From: Gemmatimonadota bacterium
GTDB lineage: Bacteria; Gemmatimonadota; Gemmatimonadetes; Gemmatimonadales; Gemmatimonadaceae
Direction of reading: 5' to 3'
DNA length: 50,337 nucleotides
Assembly (NCBI GenBank): GCA_016871915.1
Contig: VHBP01000011.1
Span: 1-50,337, forward strand
Shown: piece after piece, positions 36,027 to 50,337 of the stretch
How positions within the stretch are numbered: position 1 is the stretch's first letter
Layout: each line of letters opens with the position of its first letter
Position numbers and translations under genes: made by a program
The notes under the pieces: generated by a model
What the model saw: only the letters and a program-made list of their open reading frames with translations
What the model was told of the DNA's origin: nothing
The model's database searches: none

Positions 36027-37628
36027 TTACTGCACCGGGGTCAGCTCGACGCGACGGTTCGTCGCGCGGCCAGCCGGGGTGTTGTTAGGAGCGATCGGCT
36101 TGGAGCTGCCGTAGCCCTTCGCCGTGATCCGGTCCGCCGCGACCCCCTGCGAGATCAGGTAGGCACGAACCGCGTTCGCACGCGCCAGCGAGATCCGCTG
36201 GTTGACCGGCTCGGAGCCCGTGCGATCGGTGTGACCGCCGACCTCCACCTTCACCGACGGGTTGTCGGCCAGGGTCTTGGCGACCTCGTCCAGCGCCGGG
36301 CGCGAGGCCGGGAGGAGGGTCGAGGCCCCCGAGGCGAAGGTCACGCCCTTGAGGACGAGACTCTTCGCACCCGAGAAGATCGCCGGGCACCCCTTCACAT
36401 CGACCGCCGTCCCACGCGCCGTGTTCGCGCAGCTGTCCGACGCGTCAGGCACACCATCACCATCGGCGTCAGGCGGCGGGAGCGGGCAGCCACGGGCATC
36501 GACCTTGGTCCCAGCCGGGGTGTTCGGGCAGACGTCCGAAGCATTCGGCACGCCGTCCTTGTCGTCATCCGGCGGCGGGAGCGGGCAGCCACGGCTGTCG
36601 ACCGCCGTCCCACGGGGGGTGTTCGGGCAGGTATCGACCGCGTTCGGCACGCCGTCGTTGTCATCATCCGGCGGCGGGAGCGGGCAACCACGGCTGTCGA
36701 CCGGGGTCCCCGGCGCAGTGTTCGGGCAGGCGTCGACCGCGTTCGGCACACCGTCCGAGTCATCATCAGGGGGCGGGAGGAGACGGACCGTCCCCGGCTC
36801 ACCCGGCGCGGCGGCGACCGCCTTACGGCCCGAGTAGCTGAAGCCGATGCCGAGGGTCATCCGCACCCCGCTCGACTTCCCCTGCGCGTCCTTCGCGCGA
36901 CCGAGGAGGTCCACGATCGCCGGGGAGATGGTGACCGGGAGGTTCGGCAGCGGGGCGAAGGAGAGCCCGAGGTTCAGGTCCTGGCCGGTGTAGTCGGCGA
37001 TCAGGGAGGTGAAGCCGCTGGCCTTGATCGCCGCCGAGGCGAAGACCCCGACGCTCCCCTGCTGGTCGGAGCCGGAGGCCGGCGCGAAACGCTTGGTCCC
37101 GATGCCGCCGTTCCAGGTCACACTGTTGAAGTAGGGGCCGGTGCCGATCTGCTGCACCTTGGTGGCCGCGACGTAGAGCGAGGGATCGACGGTCGCATCC
37201 CCCGTCAGGCTCACCCCTTCCATGCCGGCCGCCACACCGATCCCGTTAGAGAGCGTCCGATGCACCTTCGCCGCGCCGTACATGCGGTCGAAGAAGCCGG
37301 AACGGACGGTCGAGGCGGAGACAGCGACGAACTCAAACCCGATCTTGCTCGGGTCCCCGAGGCCGGCGCCGACCGAGACGGAGCCGTCGTTCCCGCCCCC
37401 GAAACGCGTCGAGTTCTGGTACCCGACCCCGGCGAAGAAATCACCGGACTTGGGACCGAACCCGATCGGCGAAGCGGCGGTCACACCCGGCTGGGCGCGC
37501 CCCGTCTCCGCACCGATGGCGGCTGGGATGGGAAGCTTGTAGACCTCGCGACCCTGAGCGACGAGCGCACCCGGGAGGGCAAGCGCTGCGATCAGCGAGG
37601 CAAAGGACTGACGAGAACGAAGGGACAT
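36027..37628 (-). CDS. OmpA-family protein with thrombospondin type 3-like repeats
   Basis: Envelope protein of 533 aa linking outer membrane and peptidoglycan. Order: signal peptide (1-24, ending LVAQG), a beta-rich region likely to form a barrel (about 30-250), four tandem 33-residue repeats of the form DDDxDGVPNAxDxCPNTxxGTxVDxRGCP (about 285-420) that are calcium-binding-like, and the C-terminal OmpA domain (about 425-533) with GHTDRTGSE, NQRISLARANAVRAYL and NRRVELTP. GGAG lies 8 nt before the ATG. A 486-codon frame on the other strand is a shadow. Confidence 0.93.
   Translation of the reverse strand: MSLRSRQSFASLIAALALPGALVAQGREVYKLPIPAAIGAETGRAQPGVTAASPIGFGPKSGDFFAGVGYQNSTRFGGGNDGSVSVGAGLGDPSKIGFEFVAVSASTVRSGFFDRMYGAAKVHRTLSNGIGVAAGMEGVSLTGDATVDPSLYVAATKVQQIGTGPYFNSVTWNGGIGTKRFAPASGSDQQGSVGVFASAAIKASGFTSLIADYTGQDLNLGLSFAPLPNLPVTISPAIVDLLGRAKDAQGKSSGVRMTLGIGFSYSGRKAVAAAPGEPGTVRLLPPPDDDSDGVPNAVDACPNTAPGTPVDSRGCPLPPPDDDNDGVPNAVDTCPNTPRGTAVDSRGCPLPPPDDDKDGVPNASDVCPNTPAGTKVDARGCPLPPPDADGDGVPDASDSCANTARGTAVDVKGCPAIFSGAKSLVLKGVTFASGASTLLPASRPALDEVAKTLADNPSVKVEVGGHTDRTGSEPVNQRISLARANAVRAYLISQGVAADRITAKGYGSSKPIAPNNTPAGRATNRRVELTPVQ
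36385..36780 (-). repeat. Four 99-bp tandem coding repeats
   Basis: Four near-identical units of about 99 bp encode the type 3-like repeats of the OmpA-family protein. They are in frame and part of the gene. Copy number could vary by slippage. Confidence 0.85.
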
Positions 37629-37732
37629 CGGGGAATCTCCGCGCGAGGGATCGTGGGGCCCGAACGTGAAACGGAACAAATCCACGGGTGACCCTGAGGG
37701 GCACACGCCGTGCCACCCAGTAGGACCCTTTC

Positions 37733-38894: not shown

Positions 38895-39944
38895 ATGGCG
38901 CCAATCGTTCCGAACGCGACACAGGGGACCATCTTCCTCACGAATCAGTCGCGGGACCTCCCGGCCGTCGGTCGAGCGGTGGTGGTTGGGCGCGCGTCGG
39001 ATGTCCCCCGGGCACTAGAGCACCCCGCCGTCGGGTTCGCGCAGCGTCTCTCCGTCGCCGGGATCGTCACCGTCGACGAGGACGAGTCGGACCACTCCGC
39101 CCGTGGCGCTGAGCTCGATGAGCTCCTGTCGTCGGCGCGCGCCGACACCGTGCTCGTCGCCGGCCCCCTCGGCCGCGACACGATGCGCATCGTGACGGAC
39201 ATCGCACTCCTCAATGGGTGCCGCGTCGTTGCCGTGATGCCGAGCGAGACCGTCTCGGGCCATGACCCCCGGATCGTCTGGGAGGGGGATCGGCCGCTGG
39301 TGCAATTACTCGGGGCGCGGCATACCTCGTTGCAGTACGCGATCAAGCGTGGAGTCGATCTGTTGGGCGCGGCGCTCGGTCTGGTCCTCCTGGCCCCGCT
39401 CTTCGCCCTGATCGGACTTGCGCTGAAAGCCGATTCCCCCGGACCGGTCCTGTTCCGCCATCGCCGCGTAGGCCGCGGAGGCCAGTCCTTCGAATGCTTG
39501 AAGTTCCGGTCCATGACCGCGGATGCCGAAGAGCGCCTTCGCGAGGACGCCGCGCTGTTGGCGACCTACCATGAGAACAACTTCCGGGTGCCCGACGCTG
39601 CGGACCCTCGCGTGACGCGCCTCGGGCGCCTGCTCCGCCGCACCTCACTGGATGAACTCCCGCAGCTGTGGAATGTGCTCCGTGGGGAGATGAGCCTGAT
39701 CGGTCCGCGCCCCGTCGTCACCGACGAACTCGGGCACTTCGCCGGATCGGAGCGCCTGTTGCTCTCGGTCCGGCCGGGGATGACCGGGATGTGGGCGGTG
39801 ATGGGGCGTCATGAGGTGGCGTATCCCGCTCGCGCCGAGATCGAACTGCGCTACGTGCGGACCTGGTCGCTTCGTGGGGATCTCGCGATCGCGACCAAGA
39901 CGATCGGCGCGGTGATGCACTACGGGTCCGACCTGCCGACCTGA
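38895..39944 (+). CDS. Undecaprenyl-phosphate sugar phosphotransferase (polyprenyl PHPT-type)
   Basis: Starts repeat-unit assembly by moving a sugar-1-phosphate to undecaprenyl phosphate. The 349-aa protein has an N-terminal Rossmann-like domain (about 25-125, [10 protein letters not shown]), one re-entrant membrane helix (about 152-175, [20 protein letters not shown]) and the catalytic domain with [44 protein letters not shown]. The four-helix bundle usual in WcaJ/WbaP is absent, so the N-terminal domain is cytosolic. The substrate is likely Gal, GalNAc or Glc phosphate. Confidence 0.92.
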
Positions 39945-39946
39945 GG

Positions 39947-40825
39947 TCAGCGCGCCGTCGCGCCCCGCAGGATCGCCCGGGCTCTGGCCAGATCCCCGCG
40001 GCTCAGATAGCGGACGAGGTGGACCAGTCGCGTGGGATAGAACCACGCCATGAACCGGAACCGCTCATCCCATCGGTAGTGCGCGCGGACCATCCGGCGT
40101 CTATTGCGATCGCGCAGCAGGATCTTGATCGGTGTGGGGTCCCCCTCCGGATACGACACCTTGTGCACCATCCGCGCCTGCGGCACGTGAAGCAGGCGCC
40201 ACCCGGCGCGCCGTGCACGAAGACTCCACTCGACATCCTCGCCGTACATGAAGAAGTCGGCGCGGAAGCCCCCCAAGGCCTCGAGCGCCGCGCGTCGGAA
40301 GAGGATCCCGCACCCACAGAGGGAATCGACGGCGCGCGGAGGACCAGCACTCCCCGCGCTGGCCAGCTCCCCATAGCCGTCATGTCGGGCCAAGCCGCGG
40401 GCTACGCGAAAGGACCCGCCGGCCCACCAGACCAGATCAGCTGGCGTCTCGTGGACGATGGTGGGCGCAACCGCGGCAGCGCTCGGATCCGCCTCAAGCG
40501 CCCGGACCAACGTCGCTAGCAGATCCGGGGCGACCTCGGTGTCGTCATTGAGCACGAAGACGTATTCCGCTCCATCGGCCATGGCCTGCTCGATCCCGAC
40601 ATTATTGCCCCCAGCGTACCCGAGGTTGGCCCCCGTCTGCCGGATGGTCACGGGCAGGCCGCTCGATTGGAGCCGCTCGATCGTCGCATCGGTCGACGCG
40701 TTGTCGACCACGAGCACCGAGAGCGAGACCGACCGACTCACGAGGAGCGAGGTGACGCACGGGACCACGTGCGCGGCGGAGTTCCATGTCAGGACGATCG
40801 CGGTGATGCGAGGGGAGCCGGGCAC
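39947..40825 (-). CDS. GT2-family glycosyltransferase (rhamnosyltransferase-like)
   Basis: GT-A fold enzyme of 292 aa. It begins MPGSPRITAIVLTWNSA, then VVDNASTDATIE, GANLGYAGGNN, the DxD-like LNDDTEV and the MYGEDVEWSLRARRAG motif of WbbL/RfbN-like enzymes. I start at GTG 40823-40825, which has TAGCGT 5 nt upstream. An ATG at 40892-40894 is in frame but overlaps the ATG of the divergent flippase gene, so is less likely. It is the only minus-strand gene between plus-strand members of the locus. Confidence 0.9.
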   Translation of the reverse strand: MPGSPRITAIVLTWNSAAHVVPCVTSLLVSRSVSLSVLVVDNASTDATIERLQSSGLPVTIRQTGANLGYAGGNNVGIEQAMADGAEYVFVLNDDTEVAPDLLATLVRALEADPSAAAVAPTIVHETPADLVWWAGGSFRVARGLARHDGYGELASAGSAGPPRAVDSLCGCGILFRRAALEALGGFRADFFMYGEDVEWSLRARRAGWRLLHVPQARMVHKVSYPEGDPTPIKILLRDRNRRRMVRAHYRWDERFRFMAWFYPTRLVHLVRYLSRGDLARARAILRGATAR

Positions 40826-40892: not shown

Positions 40893-42125
40893 ATGCCCGC
40901 CGACCGCCACCTCACCCGTCATGTGGCGGTGTTCTCGACCGCCCACGCCCTCGGGATCATCGCGCCGCTCCTCACCACGCCCTATCTGGCGCGCATCCTC
41001 GGGCCAGAGGGATGGGCGCCCGTCCTCCTCGCCCAGGGGATCGCTGCTCTGGGCGCGCTCCTGCTGGAATTCGGATTCGATCTCTCTGGCACGCGCGATC
41101 TGGCGATGACCAGTGATCAGGAGGCGCGTGCGCGGCTGATCGGCGATATCCATGCGGCACGGCTGCTCCTCATCCCCGTGGCGGCGATCATCATCCTGGC
41201 CATCGCCCGTCTCGTTCCTCTGATCGGGGCGCACCCCACGCTCGTCCTCTGGACCTTCGCTGCCGCGGTCACACGGGGCTGTTCCCCCGTGTGGATCTTC
41301 CAGGGGGCGGGGATCCCAGAAGGCGCCGTCCTCATCGATGCCGCGGGCAAGCTCGGTGGGGCCCTCGCGGTCTTCGCCCTCGTCCAAGAGTCGAGCGACG
41401 GTTGGCGCGTGCTCGCGCTCCAGAGCGCCGGTGCCGCGATCCCCCTGATCCTGCTCGGCTGGCGCGCACACCGACGGTTCGCCCCCGCCCCGCTCACGAT
41501 CGTCGGGGCACGGCGGGCCCTGGCACGGGGTTGGACCGTCTTCTCCTTCCGTGGCGCTAGTGCCGTGTACATGCAGATGAACATCCTGATCGTCGGCGCG
41601 CTCGGCTCGCCCACCGCCGTCACCATGTTCGGCGGCGCTGAACGGGTGATCCGAGCGGGGATCAACCTCTTCACCCCCATCACACAGGCCCTCTTCCCTC
41701 GTGTGGCTCGCGCGGTCCCCAGCGGGGCGGAGGCCAGTCGCCGGGTGCTGATCGAAGTGACCTGGATGCTCGGAGGGATCGGCCTCGCCATCACGCTCAT
41801 CACCGTGCTGGCCGCCGGTCCGATCATCCATCTGCTCCTCGGCCCCGGATACGAGGCGGCGATCCCGCTCCTGCGCGGGCTCTCGCTCCTCCCGACCCTC
41901 ATCGCCATCGGGACGGTCCTTGGCATCCACTGGGCGATCCCCCACGGGCATGAGCGCTTCTTCCTTCGCAGCGTCCTCATCGCGGGGGCCATCAGTCTGA
42001 CCTGCGCGGGGCTCCTGATCCCCCGCGTGGGGGCGTGGGGGATGGTCATCGGGGCGACGGCGGCGGAACTCTGGGTGGCCGGCACCTTGCTGCACCGATT
42101 CCGTCATCATGGCGGTGGGCGATGA
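40893..42125 (+). CDS. Wzx-type oligosaccharide flippase
   Basis: Inner-membrane flippase that moves undecaprenyl-linked repeat units to the periplasm. From ATG at 40893 it is 410 aa with about 12 membrane helices. The N-terminus (VAVFSTAHALGIIAPLLTTPYLARILGPEGW) and the central FSFRGASAVYMQMNILIVGALGSP segment fit the RfbX/MATE-like flippase family. An open frame runs 145 codons upstream but lies antisense to the GT2 gene. The stop overlaps the next start as ATGA. Confidence 0.9.
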   Translation: MPADRHLTRHVAVFSTAHALGIIAPLLTTPYLARILGPEGWAPVLLAQGIAALGALLLEFGFDLSGTRDLAMTSDQEARARLIGDIHAARLLLIPVAAIIILAIARLVPLIGAHPTLVLWTFAAAVTRGCSPVWIFQGAGIPEGAVLIDAAGKLGGALAVFALVQESSDGWRVLALQSAGAAIPLILLGWRAHRRFAPAPLTIVGARRALARGWTVFSFRGASAVYMQMNILIVGALGSPTAVTMFGGAERVIRAGINLFTPITQALFPRVARAVPSGAEASRRVLIEVTWMLGGIGLAITLITVLAAGPIIHLLLGPGYEAAIPLLRGLSLLPTLIAIGTVLGIHWAIPHGHERFFLRSVLIAGAISLTCAGLLIPRVGAWGMVIGATAAELWVAGTLLHRFRHHGGGR

Positions 42126-43084
42126 CGTCACGCATCGATATCGTCTGCGCCGCGTATCAAGCCGAGGCGTTCATCGACGAGACCCTCCGTTCGGCGATCG
42201 CCCAGACCCACACCGACTGGCGGCTCTGGGTGCGCGATGATGCCTCAACGGATGCGACGGCACAGCGCGTCGCTGAGTGGGCGGCGCGAGATCCCCGTAT
42301 CCGACTGGTGCATCAGGGTGCGCCGAATCTGGGGGTCGTCGCCGGTTTCGCCTGGTTGCTCGCGCAACTGCCCGACGACACCCAGTGGGTCGCGTGCTTG
42401 GATGCCGATGATGTGTGGGACCGGGAGCGACTGGTCACGACCCTGGCCGCCGCTGAGTCGACCAGCAGAGCGACCGGTGGAGGACGAGCCCTGCTCGTCC
42501 ATAGCGACAGCCGGCTGATCGATGCCACGGGGCGAGAGCTCGCCCCCTCCTATTGGTCGCGCGCCGGTCTCTCGCCGACCCCGACGCCCTTGTCTCGCCT
42601 TGCGGTGCAGAACGTGGCCACGAGCTCAACCCTCTTGATGAACCGCGCCCTGTTGGATCTCCTGCGACCGATGCCGACGACCGGTCTCTTCTCACCGGAT
42701 TGGTGGTTCACCATGGTGGCGGCGACCTTCGGTGAGATCATCGCGATCCCTACCCCCTTGGTGGGATACCGGCAGCATGCCTCCAATGATGTCGGGGCGA
42801 CGCGAGGGCGGATACGAGATCTGTCCGATCTCGTCGGTCGCATCGAGCGATGGCAGACGTCCGGCGAGCGGCTCCGACACGACCTGCGACGGATGGCATT
42901 GCAGGCGGCGACCTTCCAGTCGCGGTACGATCACGACCTTTCGACTGACGACCGGCAGCTCTTGCAGGCGCTCGCAGGACTGCCTGCCCTGCCCTTCTGG
43001 CCGCGCAAGGCGTCCCTCCTGCGCCACCGCCTTCGGGCGGAATTTGGCGTGATTCGCAACCTCGGACTCCTCCTGCGCGCATGA
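42122..43084 (+). CDS. GT2-family glycosyltransferase
   Basis: GT-A fold enzyme of 320 aa, probably adding a sugar to the lipid-linked repeat. It begins MTSRIDIVCAAYQAEAFIDETLRS, has VRDDASTDATA, GAPNLGVVAGFAW and the DxD region CLDADDVWDRERL (about 100-112). The C-terminal part is helical with FSPDWWFTM, an acceptor-site-like motif. ATGA overlaps link it to the flippase and polymerase genes on both sides. Confidence 0.9.
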   Translation: MTSRIDIVCAAYQAEAFIDETLRSAIAQTHTDWRLWVRDDASTDATAQRVAEWAARDPRIRLVHQGAPNLGVVAGFAWLLAQLPDDTQWVACLDADDVWDRERLVTTLAAAESTSRATGGGRALLVHSDSRLIDATGRELAPSYWSRAGLSPTPTPLSRLAVQNVATSSTLLMNRALLDLLRPMPTTGLFSPDWWFTMVAATFGEIIAIPTPLVGYRQHASNDVGATRGRIRDLSDLVGRIERWQTSGERLRHDLRRMALQAATFQSRYDHDLSTDDRQLLQALAGLPALPFWPRKASLLRHRLRAEFGVIRNLGLLLRA

Positions 43085-44307
43085 GGGATCTCGCCCTCCT
43101 CCTGTGGGTCGCCCTGCTCGGGGCGGATCGCATCGACCTGCTTGGCGGGGAGGGGCCGATCGTCCTGACGCCCTTCTACCTCCTGACGCCGATCGTGCTG
43201 TGGAGCGAGGGGCTGCGTCGACGCCGCATCGGCCACACCTTCCTGCCCGCACTCCCCTCGCGCGGGGCGGCCTTCGCGGCGGGCGTGCTCGCCCTGCTCG
43301 CCGTCGCGGCCCTCTCCGTCCTCGTGAGCCGCGATGTCACGACATCCGTCGGGCGTCTCGTCCTCCTGACCGCCATCTCGTGCGGGACCGGTCTCGTTCT
43401 CTGGAGCGTATGGGATGATCCACGGTGGTCCGACCGTTTGGCGCGCGGGGGCCGCTGGGGGCTGGCGCTCGGCGCCGTGTGGGGTCTCCTCGAGGTGATG
43501 CAGTTCGTGGGCTGGGTACCTGCCGACTGGTTCCTCGGCCCGATTCGCCTGCGTCTCGATCCCTACACCTATGCAGGGATCCTCCCCCGCATCTCCGGGG
43601 TGACGTTCGATCCGAATCGCGCGGGACTCGTGATCCTGCTCCATTGGGCGTTGGTGGAGCGGGTGCGACCGAGGCGTGCGGGATGGGGCGTCCTCACGGT
43701 GGTGCTACTGATCGGCACCCTCTCACGGAGTGCACTCCTCGCCGCTCTGGCGTACCTCGCCATCCGTCACCTGGGCGGCGTGTCCCGGGTCATCCGGCGT
43801 CCTCCTGCGCCACGACTTGGGATCTCCCTCGTCGTGGCCCTCGCCTCACTCGCGCTCTTGCTCGCGCCGACGCCGCGGGAGCGGCTAGGGCGGTTCCTCG
43901 CGCCGGTCGCGCAGCGCCTGAGCGCGGCGGAGGGGTCCGCGCAGTCGCACACCGCGCTGATGCGCCAGGGGATCACCGAAGCGACGCGGGATGTCCCCCG
44001 CACCCTCGTCGGGGTGGGATATGGGACCTCCTTTCTCCTGCTACGTGATCGATTCGGCGGTGATCGCTACGGTAATTTCCACTCCCTGTACGTGACGTTG
44101 TGGGTCGAGAGTGGATTCATCGCGCTCGCCCTGATCATACTGCTGCTCATGCGCCCCCTTGGCCTCCCGGGTGAGTGGCGCGCGCTCTTGCTCGGTGCCA
44201 TTCTGTTCAATGTGTTCTATCAGTCCATCGCCGAACCGGCCTTCTGGGCGATGATCGCTCTGGCCTGGTCTGCGCCTCCTGCCTTGTCCTTGATGCGGTC
44301 CCGATGA
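43081..44307 (+). CDS. O-antigen polymerase/ligase family protein (Wzy candidate)
   Basis: Integral membrane protein of 408 aa with 10 or more predicted helices and a long periplasmic loop (about 262-335) of the O-antigen ligase (PF04932-like) family. The loop has HTALMRQGITEATRDVPRTLVGVGYG and the FHSLYVTLWVESG stretch, typical of polymerases and ligases. Its setting with Wzx, Wzz and GT2 genes favours Wzy polymerase. Overlaps both neighbours by 4 nt. Confidence 0.85.
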   Translation: MRDLALLLWVALLGADRIDLLGGEGPIVLTPFYLLTPIVLWSEGLRRRRIGHTFLPALPSRGAAFAAGVLALLAVAALSVLVSRDVTTSVGRLVLLTAISCGTGLVLWSVWDDPRWSDRLARGGRWGLALGAVWGLLEVMQFVGWVPADWFLGPIRLRLDPYTYAGILPRISGVTFDPNRAGLVILLHWALVERVRPRRAGWGVLTVVLLIGTLSRSALLAALAYLAIRHLGGVSRVIRRPPAPRLGISLVVALASLALLLAPTPRERLGRFLAPVAQRLSAAEGSAQSHTALMRQGITEATRDVPRTLVGVGYGTSFLLLRDRFGGDRYGNFHSLYVTLWVESGFIALALIILLLMRPLGLPGEWRALLLGAILFNVFYQSIAEPAFWAMIALAWSAPPALSLMRSR

Positions 44308-45227
44308 TCCGGTCCCTCTCCCTGCTGTGCGCCCTTCTCGTGGCTATCGGCTGTGATGGTGTGCTTTCCGCCCCCCTGCCCACGGGACGGATCCGGGTGG
44401 AGGCACGCGACCGTCGCGGTGCCCCGTTACCGGGAATCACGGCGCAGTTGTACGTGGGCTATCGCCCAATGGGATACCTGAAGACCGATGGCCGCGGTGT
44501 CGTGCGGTATGACAACGTGCCTGAGGGGCTGTATGGCGTCTACATGCGACTCCCCGATGCGTATGTCGGGTGGGACGAGGTCGCGGGCCTCCCGCGCCGC
44601 GATCTGGTCGATGGCATCACCGTAGGGGCCGGGACTGATACGACCCTCCGGTTCGAGTTCTTGCGGCGCGGCACGGGGACGACCATCGCCTGGACGGTGG
44701 ACGAGGATGCACGCCCGATCCCTAGTCGCACCGTGGTCCTCTACCGAGGGTCCGGTGTCGTCGCCGAGGCGATCTCCGACTCGGCGGGCCGCGTGGCCTT
44801 CACCGACGTCCCGATGGGCATCTACGGCGTGGCGACCACAGCGCCTCCGGAGTTTGGTGCTCCTGCTCGAGCCTATGTGTATCGCGACAACCTGGTGATG
44901 GATGGTGGCCATTGGGAGGTCGTCCGGCTCGAGCTACCGCGGTGCAGCGGTGCACTCACGCCTCGCGTACTCGACGTCGCCAACGCGCCCGTCGCGGGCG
45001 CCAGCGTGACGCTGTACCGTGGCCCCCAGTTCTTCCGAACGGCGACCACCGATACGCGTGGCGAGGTGGCCTGGACCCGAATCGACTGTGGGGAGTACGG
45101 CGTCTTCGTGGTCCCGCCGGCGGGGTATCAATCGCCCTACGCCCGAGACACCGCTTTCGTCGATGGCATCCGCGTCACCGACCTCTCCTCGCGGACCGTC
45201 ACCCTCCGCGCCTTCAGAGTGCCGTGA
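44304..45227 (+). CDS. Lipoprotein with three transthyretin-like repeats
   Basis: A 307-aa predicted lipoprotein: MIRSLSLLCALLVAIGC with lipid-modified Cys17. Three repeats of about 100 residues follow. Each has a strand, a turn with TDGRG, SDSAG or TDTRG, and a closing YGVYM, YGVAT or YGVFV strand, as in carboxypeptidase-regulatory/SpaA-type beta-sandwiches. No catalytic residue is visible. It is the last gene of the flippase operon and overlaps the 3' end of glf by 14 nt, convergently. It may anchor or bind the polysaccharide at the surface. No named family was recognised. Confidence 0.75.
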   Translation: MIRSLSLLCALLVAIGCDGVLSAPLPTGRIRVEARDRRGAPLPGITAQLYVGYRPMGYLKTDGRGVVRYDNVPEGLYGVYMRLPDAYVGWDEVAGLPRRDLVDGITVGAGTDTTLRFEFLRRGTGTTIAWTVDEDARPIPSRTVVLYRGSGVVAEAISDSAGRVAFTDVPMGIYGVATTAPPEFGAPARAYVYRDNLVMDGGHWEVVRLELPRCSGALTPRVLDVANAPVAGASVTLYRGPQFFRTATTDTRGEVAWTRIDCGEYGVFVVPPAGYQSPYARDTAFVDGIRVTDLSSRTVTLRAFRVP

Positions 45228-46320
45228 CGTCCTCGCCGAGGAGACGGCGGCTCAACATCAGCGCGCGACCGATCGCCTGATCCATGTCGTAGTAGCGGTA
45301 TTCACCCAGTCGACCGCAGATCATCAGGCTCCCGTCAGCCTCCACCCGTCGACGATACGCCTCGTACAGTCGTCGATTGGCCTCATCAGGGAACGGATAC
45401 TCGAATCCTTCCGGAGCATCTGGTGTGAACGGCGTCTCCTGCGTCAGCACCGTCCCGCGGATCGTCCGCGCCGCATCAGGCGGCATCATCCGCTTCCACT
45501 CGAGCGTGCGGATCTGCGGCCCCGAGTGCGGATCAGGATGATTCACCTGCCCAGCGGGCAAGAGGAATCCCGACACATCGGCATGAAAGTGGTGCGTGCG
45601 ACGTTGACCACGATACATGAGGCGACCGAGGTCGAATCCGTAATACTCATCGATGGGCCCGGTGAAGATGAGACATCGCCGAGCGTGCCATCGCCGCCGC
45701 TGCTGGAGGAAATCGATGCCGAGCTCCACCGAGATGCCGTCGAGCATCGCCGCCATCCATGCGGTATAGCCCTGGCGTGGGATCCCCTGAAACGCATGCC
45801 GCATCAGTCGCGGATCGTCATCTTCACGGACGTCGAAGCGCTTCGCGAGCTCCGCACTCAGCGTGTGTGCGGGGACGCCCCACTGCTTCTCGGTGTACCC
45901 CTGCACGAATTTCCGGTAGACCGGCTCGGGCATCATCGCCAGCGAGGCCTCCTCGAAGTTCGTCGGCGTCCCGACGAAGGCGGGGGTCCACGTGTCGCCC
46001 ACGGTCCGTCGGATGTATGAGGCGGCGATCGGCCACTGCTCGGCCATCCCATCGACTTCGGAGCGCAGCTCCGCCACATACGGGTAGAACTCGGCGAACC
46101 GCTTGACGAACGCCCAAAGCGCGTCCGAGTTGGTCCGGAAATAATGCGGACCATAAGTGTGGATGCGGATCCCCGACGGGTGGAGATGATCGTGGACATT
46201 CCCCCCGAGATGCTCACGCCGCTCGACGACCACCACGTCCCGTCCCGCATCCCGGAGCGACCGGGCGATCACCGCTCCGGTCAGCCCGGAGCCGACGACG
46301 ACGTAGTCGGCCGTGGGCAC
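45214..46320 (-). CDS. glf: UDP-galactopyranose mutase
   Basis: Flavoenzyme converting UDP-galactopyranose to UDP-galactofuranose. The 368-aa protein has the FAD loop YVVVGSGLTGAVIAR and ERREHLGGN, HTYGPHYFRTN, the GYTEKQWG signature, and the C-terminal AIGRALMLSR. GTG at 46318-46320 lies 4 nt from the wzz stop, and the frame upstream is antisense-like sequence. Its presence predicts galactofuranose in the polysaccharide. Confidence 0.94.
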   Translation of the reverse strand: MPTADYVVVGSGLTGAVIARSLRDAGRDVVVVERREHLGGNVHDHLHPSGIRIHTYGPHYFRTNSDALWAFVKRFAEFYPYVAELRSEVDGMAEQWPIAASYIRRTVGDTWTPAFVGTPTNFEEASLAMMPEPVYRKFVQGYTEKQWGVPAHTLSAELAKRFDVREDDDPRLMRHAFQGIPRQGYTAWMAAMLDGISVELGIDFLQQRRRWHARRCLIFTGPIDEYYGFDLGRLMYRGQRRTHHFHADVSGFLLPAGQVNHPDPHSGPQIRTLEWKRMMPPDAARTIRGTVLTQETPFTPDAPEGFEYPFPDEANRRLYEAYRRRVEADGSLMICGRLGEYRYYDMDQAIGRALMLSRRLLGEDVTAL

Positions 46321-46324
46321 CGCG

Positions 46325-47839
46325 TCAGACGGGGCGCGTGGACCGCTGTGCGGCCGCGACCGCCGTCCCGACTGAAAGCCCGAGGACCAGGGCGAGCACG
46401 AGGTGGACCCAGACCTTCGGGAACTGGGGATCATCCGGGTGGGCGATGATCGGCGTATCGACGATGCGGACCTGATCGAGCCGGAGGGCTTCGCGCAGCT
46501 CGGTCTGGCGGAGCTGTTTCTGGAGGAGGAGGTACCCCTCATTGAGCACCTGCCGATCACGCAACAGGCGGATGTAGGTCATCTCCTCCCGCGGGAGCTG
46601 GGCCAACTCCCCATCGATCGTATCGATGGCCGCCGTGAGGGACCGACTCCGGACGGCGATCGCCTCGAGATACTGCGTCCCCAAGCGCTGCAGCGAGCGC
46701 TCGATCTCGGCGATGCGCGACGCGAGCTGCCGAAGCTCCCGACTCTCGTCAGCGAGCAACAACTGGCGTTCGGATCGGGTGTTCTCCAAGGTGAGCAACG
46801 ACTCGAGCAGATCCTGGATCGCGCGGTTCGAGAGTAGCGAGGGATAGGTCGCCAACTGCCGGTAGGCCTCGGGGGAGCGCGTCTGACCCGCGCGCTCCTC
46901 CGTCAATGCCAGCATCCCAGCGACGGCCCGCCGTTCGACCTCCGCGGCATCAAGCTCGGCGCGGAGGGCCGCGTAGCGTTTGACCTGGGCAGCGGCCTGC
47001 TCCTCAGGGACCACCAGCCCACTCCGCTCCTGGTTGCGGCGAAGTGCCTCCTCCGCTGCAGCCAACGCGACACGCTGCGCCTCGACCTGCCGACGAAGCT
47101 CCGCCGCGGTCGACCCAAGGTCCCCCCGCTCCGTCCGCGCGACAAAGCTGAGATACTCGGCGAGCATCCGGTCGACGACCTGCGCCGCGAGCCGTCGATC
47201 GGAGTCGTCAAAGGAGATGGCGATGAGCCGCGACCCGATCTCCTGCCGCCGAACGTCCAAGCGATCGACCAAGGCCTCCCGCACCTCGTAGCGGGGTGTG
47301 AATCGGAGTTCGAGCGGTGACGGGGCTTCCCCTGGCTCGAATCGAGGATCGAATCGCAACCAGATGCCGCCGACACGGAGGGTGTCACCAGCGACCAGCG
47401 TCGCAGCAGATGGCGCGAGCTCGGAGGGCGCCTCGAGGCGGAGATCGACCGCCCACGTGCCCCCATCGGTCGGGGTGAAGGTGAGCTTGCCATCCAGGTC
47501 ATCCTCTGGGGCACGCACCGCGATCGTCGCGACATCCGCCCGCTCCCCGGCCGGGCGACGGACCGTGAGCGCGAGCGTGTCGATCACCGCATCGAGCACC
47601 CGACGGCTGGTGAGGACCCCGATCTCCGACTCGACCTCATCCCGACTCAGGCCGAGCATCCCTGCGCCCGGGATCGCGCTGAGCGCATCAGAGAGGCCGG
47701 AGCTCGACGGATCGTCCTGCACCCGGACGAGGGCGGTGCTCCGGTAGCGGGGGGTGACCAGCACGGTCCAGGTCATCACCGCAAGGAAGCACCCGAGGCC
47801 TGCGGCCCAAGGGAGCCGATGCCAGCGCAGGAAAGTCAT
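46325..47839 (-). CDS. Wzz/GumC-like polysaccharide co-polymerase
   Basis: Inner-membrane protein of 504 aa that sets chain length. A membrane helix near the N-terminus (about 11-30) is followed by a periplasmic Wzz domain, a beta-rich insertion (about 90-190), a long coiled coil (about 225-445) and a second helix (about 476-496, VHLVLALVLGLSVGTAVAAA). The protein ends there: no BY-kinase domain is fused, and no kinase gene is in the window. ATGA overlap with the Wzi-like gene. Confidence 0.88.
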   Translation of the reverse strand: MTFLRWHRLPWAAGLGCFLAVMTWTVLVTPRYRSTALVRVQDDPSSSGLSDALSAIPGAGMLGLSRDEVESEIGVLTSRRVLDAVIDTLALTVRRPAGERADVATIAVRAPEDDLDGKLTFTPTDGGTWAVDLRLEAPSELAPSAATLVAGDTLRVGGIWLRFDPRFEPGEAPSPLELRFTPRYEVREALVDRLDVRRQEIGSRLIAISFDDSDRRLAAQVVDRMLAEYLSFVARTERGDLGSTAAELRRQVEAQRVALAAAEEALRRNQERSGLVVPEEQAAAQVKRYAALRAELDAAEVERRAVAGMLALTEERAGQTRSPEAYRQLATYPSLLSNRAIQDLLESLLTLENTRSERQLLLADESRELRQLASRIAEIERSLQRLGTQYLEAIAVRSRSLTAAIDTIDGELAQLPREEMTYIRLLRDRQVLNEGYLLLQKQLRQTELREALRLDQVRIVDTPIIAHPDDPQFPKVWVHLVLALVLGLSVGTAVAAAQRSTRPV

Positions 47840-49461
47840 GGGCGGAAGAAGAAGCGCTGGGTGGAGGGCGTCAAGGTCAGGCCGAGGCTCCAGGTGCGAT
47901 AATCGATCCCCTCGTAGTACCCACGAATCGGGTCACGCAGAAGCGCTTGGTTCAGATAGGCGAGGCGGACACCTCGCGATAGCTCGATCTCGGTCGCCAT
48001 CCCAAGGAGGGGCAAGGCAGCCCGGATGCTCCCCATCAGGGTGATATCGGGAAGCTTCCCCTTGCCGCCCGGGACCACATCGGTGAAGAGGGGGCCATTC
48101 AGCCACCGCACCCGAGCGAATGACACGCCTAAACGGCGCTCGCGTCCGTGCCAGTCGGCCGCAAGGTGCTGGCTCGATCCGCCCGGTCCGATGAAGGGTC
48201 CCAGCATCTGACCCTGATGGGTCCATCCCTGCGGGAGCGCAGGACTCGTGTAGGAGAGACCCACTGGCCGCACACGCAGCGACGGGCTCGGCTCCGTGTA
48301 GGTGAACTCGGATTGCAGGTGGAGCATCGACCCGCGCCAGGAGGGCCGCGCGACCTGGAATCCCACCGTGTATCCCTGCGAATGGCCCGGGAACTCGATG
48401 AAGTCCCGGAGCGACGCCGGGAACTCGTACCGTGCCCACTCAGCGTAGGCCTCGACGCCAGACTCGGGGACGGTCCATCGCAGGAAGAGATCGGTGATCT
48501 GGTCGCGCGCGCCATGCCGCACGATGTCATCAGGGGCTGAGACAGGACGACCGATATCTTGGAAGGCACCGAGGAGATCCTCGAATCCGGCGGTGCCTGG
48601 CGCCATCGCCGCCCGGGCGATCCCGAGGGTGGGGAGAACGGCGAGTCGCCCTGCCGGGCGCCAGACCATGGCCACCGCCGAGAGCGTGCGTGCATCGTTC
48701 GATTGGTCGGCATCGAAGAACGCACTCTCGCGGAGCGTGCCCAGCAGGTATTGGGCCTCGAGCGATCCCGCGCGTGTGCGCCACGGCTGCGGCATCTCGA
48801 CGAAGCCGTGAGAGAATCCAGGCGCGTTCGAGGAGAGGAGCAACGCATTGAACGCCCCAGGTCCCCACCAACGGTTCTCATTTGATATCCCGATGCGCGC
48901 GTGCCGGGAGAGATCGATCGCCAATCGGCTCTGCCCCCACGCGAGCGAGGTGCGCGGGTGATCGCCGAACCGCAGTGGCCAGTCCGCTGACTCGGGGCGC
49001 GGCAGGTAAGGATGCGCCCAGATCGACCGACGCTCCGGTCGGGTCTGATCCCAGGGGATGACGAAAACCGGGCGATTCGCCTCATGGGCCACCTGCGGAG
49101 CCAAGGTCATCGACACGGGCCCGACGCTGATCGCGATCCCAGCGGTCACCAGGGCGTTTGCCCCGCGCCCAGGTCGCAACGCCCCATCATTGCCGCCCCA
49201 CGGAAGCGAGGAGTTCCACCGCGTGACGAGCGAGGGCGTGAGGAACCTGATCGCTGGGCTGAGCGAGTCCTGCAGCCCGCGATGCACCGTTGGTGCACGC
49301 AAGAGTGCGCCGTCGAGCGGGAGCTGACCCGTGAGCACACGCAGCCGATCGACACGGTCGATCGCGTCACCGGGGATGCTGATTGGGGTCGAAACGCGCG
49401 ACGGCTGCGCGACGGCGAGCGCCGGACAGAGGACCGCGAGGCACAGCACGCGTTGCAGCAC
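47836..49461 (-). CDS. Wzi-like capsule assembly outer-membrane protein
   Basis: Predicted 541-aa outer-membrane barrel that anchors capsule at the cell surface. Signal peptide about 1-18 (LCPALAVAQ). The body is a series of amphipathic strands; NENRWWGPGAFNALLLSSNAPGF (about 196-218) is the pattern I recognise from Wzi proteins, and the end is STQRFFFRP, an aromatic-rich C-terminus. GTG start at 49459-49461. First gene of wzi-wzz-glf, divergent from a second Wzi-like gene. Confidence 0.82.
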   Translation of the reverse strand: MLQRVLCLAVLCPALAVAQPSRVSTPISIPGDAIDRVDRLRVLTGQLPLDGALLRAPTVHRGLQDSLSPAIRFLTPSLVTRWNSSLPWGGNDGALRPGRGANALVTAGIAISVGPVSMTLAPQVAHEANRPVFVIPWDQTRPERRSIWAHPYLPRPESADWPLRFGDHPRTSLAWGQSRLAIDLSRHARIGISNENRWWGPGAFNALLLSSNAPGFSHGFVEMPQPWRTRAGSLEAQYLLGTLRESAFFDADQSNDARTLSAVAMVWRPAGRLAVLPTLGIARAAMAPGTAGFEDLLGAFQDIGRPVSAPDDIVRHGARDQITDLFLRWTVPESGVEAYAEWARYEFPASLRDFIEFPGHSQGYTVGFQVARPSWRGSMLHLQSEFTYTEPSPSLRVRPVGLSYTSPALPQGWTHQGQMLGPFIGPGGSSQHLAADWHGRERRLGVSFARVRWLNGPLFTDVVPGGKGKLPDITLMGSIRAALPLLGMATEIELSRGVRLAYLNQALLRDPIRGYYEGIDYRTWSLGLTLTPSTQRFFFRP

Positions 49462-49537
49462 GCTGAAAGCTCACGGGAAGGAGGCGCTGCGGCAAGACGA
49501 GCGTCGCCGCGCTGTGGTCGCTCCGGGGTTGGTACGG

Positions 49538-49543
49538 TATCTT
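49538..49543 (+). promoter_or_regulatory. Candidate -10 (TATCTT) of the second Wzi-like gene
   Basis: TATCTT, preceded by GG, lies 6 nt before the ATG at 49550. No Shine-Dalgarno fits between. It belongs with the TAGCTT-type elements. Confidence 0.4.
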
Positions 49544-49549
49544 CATTGG

Positions 49550-50337
49550 ATGTCTCGCCCCGCTCGACCTGCGCCGCTGGCTCGGCGAGGCTGTCAATGG
49601 CGTCTCCGGCTCGTGCGAGCGCTGGCGGTCGCTCTCCTCGCATCGGCGAGCCAGTCGCCGCTGGAAGCCCAGCTCGATCTCGGCGGCGTGCCGATCGTCG
49701 GTGGCGACGAGCATTGGTATCGCAGGACCCGTGCCCTCCTCGATTCCTCTGGCGCGGATCCGTGGCGCACGAGGGTCACGGTCCCGCTCCCGACGCGAGG
49801 CCCGCAGGTGCGCCTGCTGCGCCCCGAACTTCGCGTGCTCTACAACTCGCTTCGGCCGAGCGATGGGGACGATGGGGTCATCTGGGCAGGGCGCGGTGTG
49901 ACGGGCGCGGCACAGGCAGGATGCGAAGCGCGTTGGGGCATCGTGCGGATGCAGGTCGCGCCGATCGTCTTCCGGGCGCAGAATCGCTCGTTTCCTTTGA
50001 TCGATAACGGGCGGACGGATCTCACGCGATTCGGTGACGCCCGATTCCTAGGGAGTATCGACCTCCCGCAGCGTTTTGGTGATGCCCCGTACGGTCGACT
50101 CGATCCCGGCGACAGCTTCCTCGCCCTCGAGTGGATGGGGGCCACGATCGGGATCTCGTCCGCTCGGCAGCTCTGGGGACCGGCACGCGAATTCCCGCTC
50201 GTCCTCGGGACACGCGCAGGCGGCTTCCCTCACCTGTTCGCTGGGACGACGCAGCCGATCTCCGTCGGCATCGGCACGGTGGAGGGACGGCTCATCGCCG
50301 CGCGACTTGAGCAGACGCGGTGGTCGCCGGTCCAGAC
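49550..50337 (+). CDS. Second Wzi-like outer-membrane protein, 5' part (cut by window end)
   Basis: The frame is open from ATG at 49550 to the window end: 262 codons. An Arg-rich n-region and hydrophobic core form a signal peptide ending about SPLEAQ (residue 41), followed by QLDLGGVPIVGGDEHWYRR. The mature part has beta-strand character and ISSARQLWGPAREFPLVLG and GGFPHLFAGT, the same WGP-containing pattern as the divergent Wzi-like protein. It is thus probably a second capsule-anchoring barrel. Its C-terminal half is not visible. Confidence 0.75.
   Translation, partial: MSRPARPAPLARRGCQWRLRLVRALAVALLASASQSPLEAQLDLGGVPIVGGDEHWYRRTRALLDSSGADPWRTRVTVPLPTRGPQVRLLRPELRVLYNSLRPSDGDDGVIWAGRGVTGAAQAGCEARWGIVRMQVAPIVFRAQNRSFPLIDNGRTDLTRFGDARFLGSIDLPQRFGDAPYGRLDPGDSFLALEWMGATIGISSARQLWGPAREFPLVLGTRAGGFPHLFAGTTQPISVGIGTVEGRLIAARLEQTRWSPVQ

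Follow-up and report, generated by a model that had tools for sequence, protein, structure and literature searches.

A repeat lipoprotein paired with one Wzy subfamily in predicted Wzx/Wzy polysaccharide loci of Gemmatimonadota

A lipoprotein with prealbumin-like repeats is encoded in every genome of the phylum Gemmatimonadota in which we found the Wzy subfamily represented in the window, i.e., the whole 50,337-nucleotide stretch that was analysed (positions 1 to 50,337 of contig VHBP01000011.1, assembly GCA_016871915.1). The window's own member of this family is confirmed, from its sequence, as a predicted lipoprotein with three CarboxypepD_reg/prealbumin-like repeats (Table 1). We tentatively propose, as a possibility a little short of an even chance, that this lipoprotein may be a dedicated periplasmic partner of one Wzy subfamily, which would hold the growing polymer or hand it on in a Wzx/Wzy capsule or exopolysaccharide system.

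The lipoprotein gene begins with an ATG codon, and the ATGA at 44304-44307 is common to its start and the end of the Wzy_C gene. Both the frame and the ATGA junction are kept in two congeners, at 88% and 43% identity of the lipoprotein, so the frame is not a chance one. The sequence-only reading had described the product as a lipoprotein with three transthyretin-like repeats, translationally coupled to wzy. The description of the protein is borne out by the lipobox, by the Pfam and unit-profile matches and by the structure model, while of the coupling the ATGA overlap is seen and translational coupling itself is what we infer from it. The N-terminus, ending in ALLVAIG before Cys17, reads as a type II signal sequence. 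CarboxypepD_reg (PF13620) matches the protein with 51.6 bits against a cut-off of 32.3, and SdrD_B, SpaA and Ig_DR_A0283-like are also above their Pfam cut-offs. A profile iterated from the protein's own three units finds exactly three of them, with 78-93 bits. The AlphaFold2 model, made with a 3-row alignment, consists of three beta domains (mean pLDDT 82.3, pTM 0.57). The best solved matches of this model in a structure search are CnaB/SdrD-B-type domains (8bdw_A, Z 13.2, rmsd 1.7 over 89 residues), and the matches also include a transthyretin-like domain from carboxypeptidase D (5aq0_B, Z 11.4, rmsd 1.9 over 81 residues). Judged by the model, the window repeats qualify as having a transthyretin-like beta-sandwich fold, in which Cys214 and Cys262 of repeat 3 probably form a disulfide. 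A sequence search of the PDB and a search of plasmid records returned no match, and signals in the promoter and terminator scan were at or below chance level.

Table 1. Predicted features of the repeat lipoprotein gene and of the surrounding polysaccharide locus in the window
Feature	Position	Strand	Basis and remarks
Short Wza/OPX-type export protein, 231 aa	38106..38801	-	Poly_export above cut-off, SLBB below; no other Pfam match
Initiating phosphoglycosyl transferase (Bac_transf)	38895..39944	+	Pfam
Family 2 glycosyltransferase	39947..40825	-	Pfam
Wzx flippase	40893..42125	+	Pfam; start inferred, frame open further upstream
Family 2 glycosyltransferase	42122..43084	+	Pfam; ATGA overlaps at both ends
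Wzy_C polymerase candidate, 408 aa	43081..44307	+	Pfam; sole PF04932 match found in the genome
Repeat lipoprotein gene	44304..45227	+	307 aa; uninterrupted frame; three units; 26 homologues in the family
Type II signal sequence with lipobox	44304..44354	+	Cys17 codon at 44352-44354; Cys invariant in 26/26 aligned homologues
Repeat 1 (residues 27-117), membrane-proximal	44382..44654	+	Unit profile, unit tree; position-orthologous in most homologues
Repeat 2 (residues 124-209)	44673..44930	+	Unit profile, unit tree
Repeat 3 (residues 214-301)	44943..45206	+	Unit profile, unit tree; Cys214/Cys262; repeats multiply from here in relatives
UDP-galactopyranose mutase	45214..46320	-	Pfam; convergent, 14-base end overlap with lipoprotein gene
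Wzz/GNVR polysaccharide co-polymerase	46325..47839	-	Pfam; no kinase domain found
Wzi-family outer-membrane barrel, first of pair	47836..49461	-	Pfam, local Wzi profile
Second Wzi-family gene, start only, cut by window end	49613..50335	+	Local Wzi profile, 7.8e-45

The initiating phosphoglycosyl transferase (PGT), Wzx, Wzy_C, Wzz/GNVR and OPX proteins are all above Pfam cut-off in one locus, which qualifies by its predicted proteins as a Wzx/Wzy-dependent polysaccharide locus; NCBIfam gave matches far below cut-offs only for the locus proteins. The genes from wzx through the glycosyltransferase gene and wzy to the lipoprotein gene form a run of overlapping genes in which the lipoprotein gene is the last. 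The window Wzy is the only PF04932 match in its genome, which is 98.75% complete, and PF14296 has no match there, a weak test given that this profile was above cut-off in none of 14 control genomes. Wzy is therefore probably the polymerase of this genome, as far as these profile matches indicate; its structure model (pLDDT 37) was unusable. The UDP-galactopyranose mutase gene suggests galactofuranose in the polymer, and a homologue of this mutase is also found in G313 (L056). The Wzi-family genes at 47836-50335 are a divergent pair, and at least two Wzi-type genes are present in 18 of 20 control loci without window-type wzy. Beside the locus, at 36027-37706, lies a gene for an OmpA-family protein in which thrombospondin type 3 repeats are matched four times.

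Within the window's own genome and 60 relatives (61 in total), the three genomes with a strong lipoprotein match are also the three with a wzy match (G000, G004 and G015), and eight more of these genomes contain weak partial lipoprotein matches only (E 8e-6 to 3e-4). For the phylum, 395 genomes drawn evenly from a larger group were scanned for the lipoprotein, wzy and Wzi, with scores taken for the top 3 to 7 candidates in each genome. The first lipoprotein profile matched 28 of the 395 genomes at E <= 1e-8, from which G250 was removed, as was G085, where a PGT is nearby and the contig ends, and loci were mapped from 27 genomes beyond the window's own (L015, L016 and L051-L075) with a home-made gene caller that was trained on the GC-rich window. 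With a wider profile, 61 of the 395 genomes match at E <= 1e-8 and 26 stand apart at E <= 1e-35; past these 26 and G085 (1.9e-28), the matches drop to 3e-19 and weaker. Generic repeat lipoproteins of G170, G357, G129, G361 and G372 (5e-11) were rejected as members of the family; the flanks retrieved around them contained no match to the capsule proteins of the window. Beyond the phylum, the search consisted of one contig scan with two short peptide patterns, and a Flavobacteriales match (L022) was set aside, as it shows 28% identity over part of the query and the window-trained gene caller gave five frames.

The co-occurrence with wzy that had been offered as a check on the sequence-only reading is observed throughout. 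A wzy profile built from 19 loci (the window and lipoprotein-bearing ones), which makes the count partly circular, finds window-type wzy at a limit of 1e-20 in 25 of the 395 genomes, with the best match of each at 3.1e-110 or lower and none other at or below 1e-20. All 25 of these genomes carry the lipoprotein as a strong match, so the gene is not absent from orthologous loci, and no wzy was found without it. The 26th lipoprotein genome, G239, in which no wzy was found, carries the gene on a 9.1-kb contig, one end of which lies next to wzx. Other capsule genes are present in all 26 lipoprotein loci, and the pairing of wzy and lipoprotein spans 14 genera in three families. The Wzi profile matches 97 of the 395 genomes, among which the lipoprotein is found in 24 of the 24 that are wzy-positive and in 1 of the 73 that are wzy-negative; only G343 has the lipoprotein and no Wzi match, and there the contig stops at the lipoprotein gene. 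PF04932, for its part, is found in 205 of 289 genomes. Since Wzi and PF04932 are far more widely distributed, the lipoprotein tracks one Wzy subfamily and locus type rather than Wzy_C proteins or capsule loci as a whole. Nineteen of the top 20 Wzi matches come from lipoprotein-bearing genomes, which indicates that the whole locus type travels together. The co-occurrence is thus confounded, as the locus resembles a linked cassette and the genomes are related, and the Fisher values of 1e-38, 7e-22 and 3e-18 are descriptive only because they ignore relatedness. Partial correlations of pairwise distances across 12 loci are 0.06 for lipoprotein and wzy, 0.34 for lipoprotein and wzz and 0.35 for lipoprotein and wzi. 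With the lipoprotein-wzy value the lowest of the three, Wzy is not singled out as the partner by this measure.

Of the 25 loci with both the lipoprotein gene and wzy, 18 have them adjacent and on one strand: as separate genes with wzy first in 13, with the lipoprotein gene first in four and as a single frame in one (G267). The 4-base overlap is found in six loci, those of the window, G004, G015, G207, G313 and G326; for G174, the called overlap is 142 and its start is uncertain. In the remaining seven loci, the two genes are on opposite strands; the distance between them is 1.6-1.7 kb in five loci and 4.3 kb in one, and in one locus they overlap tail to tail.

Conservation of the membrane anchor, another check attached to the sequence-only reading, is complete: the lipobox Cys and one Gly are the columns invariant in all 26 homologues, and the Cys is preceded by Gly or Ala in the N-termini displayed. 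The number of repeats varies, with one repeat in three homologues, two in five, three in eight, four in six and five in three, and at least four in a further homologue that is cut by a contig end. In a tree of the units, the labels of first repeats change 2 times and those of second repeats 3 times, vs. 20-22 times in shuffles. Twenty-four of the 26 first repeats group together; the single repeats found in G285 and G264 fall outside this group, and the later repeats intermix. From these sequence comparisons, repeats 1 and 2 appear largely to keep their identity by position, and the distal repeats appear to multiply by duplication. In G326 (L057:9149-10660), units 3-5 are 81-87% identical, i.e., a recent tandem duplication, and its congener G090 has three units. 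Repeat 1 carries the signature LYtGxRpmgygxTD, and, of the 18 homologues that have at least three repeats, 17 contain in repeat 3 a Cys pair 47-49 residues apart.

Fold and tandem layout are the same as those of the CnaB/SdrD-B/CarboxypepD_reg domains of Gram-positive adhesins and pilins (TIE protein 6fwv, CnaB2 8bdw and, for carboxypeptidase D, 5aq0). Unlike CnaB/SdrD-B adhesins, the window protein is anchored by a lipobox, is encoded in a capsule locus and has a Cys pair in repeat 3. CnaB domains are defined by a Lys-Asn/Asp isopeptide pair in each domain. The window lipoprotein contains 1 Lys in total, which leaves at least two of the three repeats unable to form the CnaB Lys-Asn isopeptide bond; five homologues have no Lys and others have up to 14.

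In two genomes, lipobox and repeats are joined in frame to a Wzy_C protein. In G267 (L060:5380-7872), a frame of 830 codons encodes Wzy, a lipobox segment and four repeats. Its linker of ~30 residues has a poor coding signal, an ATGA after a purine-rich stretch is present in other frames, and the join is possibly an indel artefact of a draft genome. G017 is a cleaner case, in which the frame of a different Wzy_C protein continues into a lipobox and CarboxypepD_reg/Big_1 repeats (L134:1327-4146, 939 aa), with a coding signal that is positive and steady through the junction. Separate CarboxypepD_reg/Big_1 lipoproteins of 636-640 aa are encoded in Wzi loci without window-type wzy in G031 (L131:14803-16713) and G032 (L133:13535-15457). 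They share a CDPC(V/S)G lipobox, are 39.8% identical to each other and are 33-35% identical to the G017 protein over its repeat part. Their nearest multi-span neighbor is Wzx, with Wzy_C two genes further on in G031 and one gene further on in G032. These three proteins indicate that a second, different repeat lipoprotein accompanies at least some other Wzx/Wzy loci. When the unit profile was run on 20 Wzi loci without window-type wzy, only the G017 protein was matched; as the profile missed the G031 and G032 lipoproteins, the lack of a unit match does not equal the lack of a related domain. Lipobox proteins neighbor multi-span proteins in four of 18 control loci, i.e., those of G031 and G032, L129 (GDSL-lipase-type) and L127 (136 aa, no family). 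Read from the gene sequences, the in-frame joins make us lean towards a periplasmic role beside the polymerase over a surface tether.

That the lipoprotein may be a polymerase-side partner is suggested by its predicted export and lipidation, a mostly conserved base, variable distal repeats and the tie to a polymerase. We propose that the lipoprotein would be exported and lipidated and would stay at the membrane, its repeats lying in the periplasm, that the membrane-proximal repeat would dock on the polymerase or co-polymerase, and that the variable distal repeats would keep hold of the sugar chain as it grows and hand it on toward the short OPX protein and the Wzi-type barrel. The number of repeats would then match different polymers or the reach required. 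A common docking repeat may not extend to G285 and G264, whose single repeats group apart from the other first repeats.

Parts of this proposal resemble known systems. A transthyretin-fold lipoprotein, TssJ/Lip, is a precedent in that it belongs to the core of the type VI secretion system, a machine that spans the cell envelope (PMC3225178). TssJ/Lip is encoded with type VI secretion genes, whereas the window-type lipoprotein has one to five domains and capsule genes beside it in all its loci. GfcB-GfcC-GfcD of the E. coli group 4 capsule likewise includes a lipoprotein from overlapping capsule-locus genes, and GfcB is described as working with GfcC and an outer-membrane barrel and is compared in fold with LolA (PMC8592465). 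Unlike the gfcB gene, the window-type lipoprotein gene is usually nearest a polymerase gene, and its product has a prealbumin-like fold. The short OPX protein and Wzi-type barrels of the window locus are like composite OPX/beta-barrel export by EpsY/EpsX and Wzp, and the OPX protein resembles the class 3 OPX proteins that, according to the portions consulted, work with a beta-barrel (PMC9601211; PMC9603273). No repeat lipoprotein is mentioned in those portions, the main texts of both papers are without Gemmatimonadota, and transthyretin is absent from the first (PMC9601211; PMC9603273).

Alternatively, the lipoprotein may tether the capsule at the outer membrane, where its adhesin-like repeats would hold finished polymer from the surface or the inner leaflet, and it would co-occur with Wzy because both proteins must fit the same polymer. 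Surface adhesins and pilins have this fold, the repeat number is variable as in adhesins, the locus has two Wzi-type barrels, and the distance correlations lean to wzi and wzz over wzy. Because LolA is encoded in the window's genome, sorting to the outer membrane is possible. However, Wzi loci are common without the lipoprotein, which is found in only 25 of the 97 Wzi genomes, and in-frame joins to Wzy are ill-suited to an outer-membrane protein unless it is cleaved. Asp at position +2 is the inner-membrane retention signal of lipoproteins in enterobacteria. The +2 residue is Asp in eight of the 26 homologues, including that of the window, Glu in ten, Ala in four, Ser in three and Gly in one, so that it is mixed as a sign of localisation: by the enterobacterial rule, Asp speaks against a tether where it is present, and its presence in only eight homologues speaks against the partner reading. 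On balance, we consider a tether unlikely, although a serious alternative.

We regard as improbable a reading, drawn by analogy with PglL-type enzymes that glycosylate a neighboring acceptor, in which the lipoprotein is a protein acceptor that would receive the polymer through Wzy_C or some of its activity, which would yield a covalent, lipoprotein-anchored capsule. The Wzy_C family includes protein O-oligosaccharyltransferases that are often encoded beside an acceptor gene, with 21 of 31 PglL candidates adjoining pilin-like genes, and WaaL has the trio R215, R288 and H338 (PMC3643930). The window pair is like PglL and its acceptor in that a Wzy_C-family gene lies beside a candidate partner gene, and the Wzy family keeps Arg216, Arg279 and His334, which look like the WaaL residues and may be their equivalents. 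A Ser/Thr lies at +6, counted with the lipid Cys as +1, in 21 of the 26 homologues, and 25 have one at either +6 or +7. On the other hand, unlike PglL, Wzy gave no Pfam hit to PglL_A at E <= 0.1, is encoded in a polysaccharide locus and, as the sole PF04932 protein of the genome, is probably needed as the polymerase; Ser/Thr are common residues and the +6 motif could serve sorting or packing. That Wzy_C would polymerise and also couple the chain to the lipoprotein near its anchor, at Ser/Thr +6, giving a proteoglycan-like, lipoprotein-linked capsule in which the repeats set the stand-off of the glycan from the membrane, we regard as very improbable.

As improbable as the acceptor reading is a generic repeat lipoprotein carried by the cassette without a role in polysaccharide handling: CarboxypepD_reg-type repeat proteins, some of them with lipobox-like N-termini, do occur elsewhere in the phylum without matches to the window's capsule proteins in the flanks retrieved (for example G170, G357, G129 and G361), but the window-type lipoprotein is kept wherever its wzy is found, across genera and families, with anchor and repeats conserved, and in the nearest pair it is more conserved (88% identity) than Wzy (79%).

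The view that no such part is standard in Wzx/Wzy pathways, put forward in the sequence-only reading, agrees with the literature searched: among the matches listed, which comprise titles and abstract openings with few subscription journals covered, no prealbumin-repeat lipoprotein is described as paired with Wzy, and no work on such capsule loci in Gemmatimonadota was found. To the best of our knowledge, little has been learned about how a polymer, as it grows, gets away from Wzy and into the export channel. A lipoprotein that is tied to one Wzy subfamily, with repeat lipoproteins of its kind joined in frame to polymerases in one tentative case and in one cleaner case from a second family, would provide a handle on this hand-over. 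As predicted from these sequences, the pairing points to an undescribed extra part of the Wzx/Wzy sugar-export pathway, and it adds a part to the capsule loci of Gemmatimonadota, a little-studied phylum.
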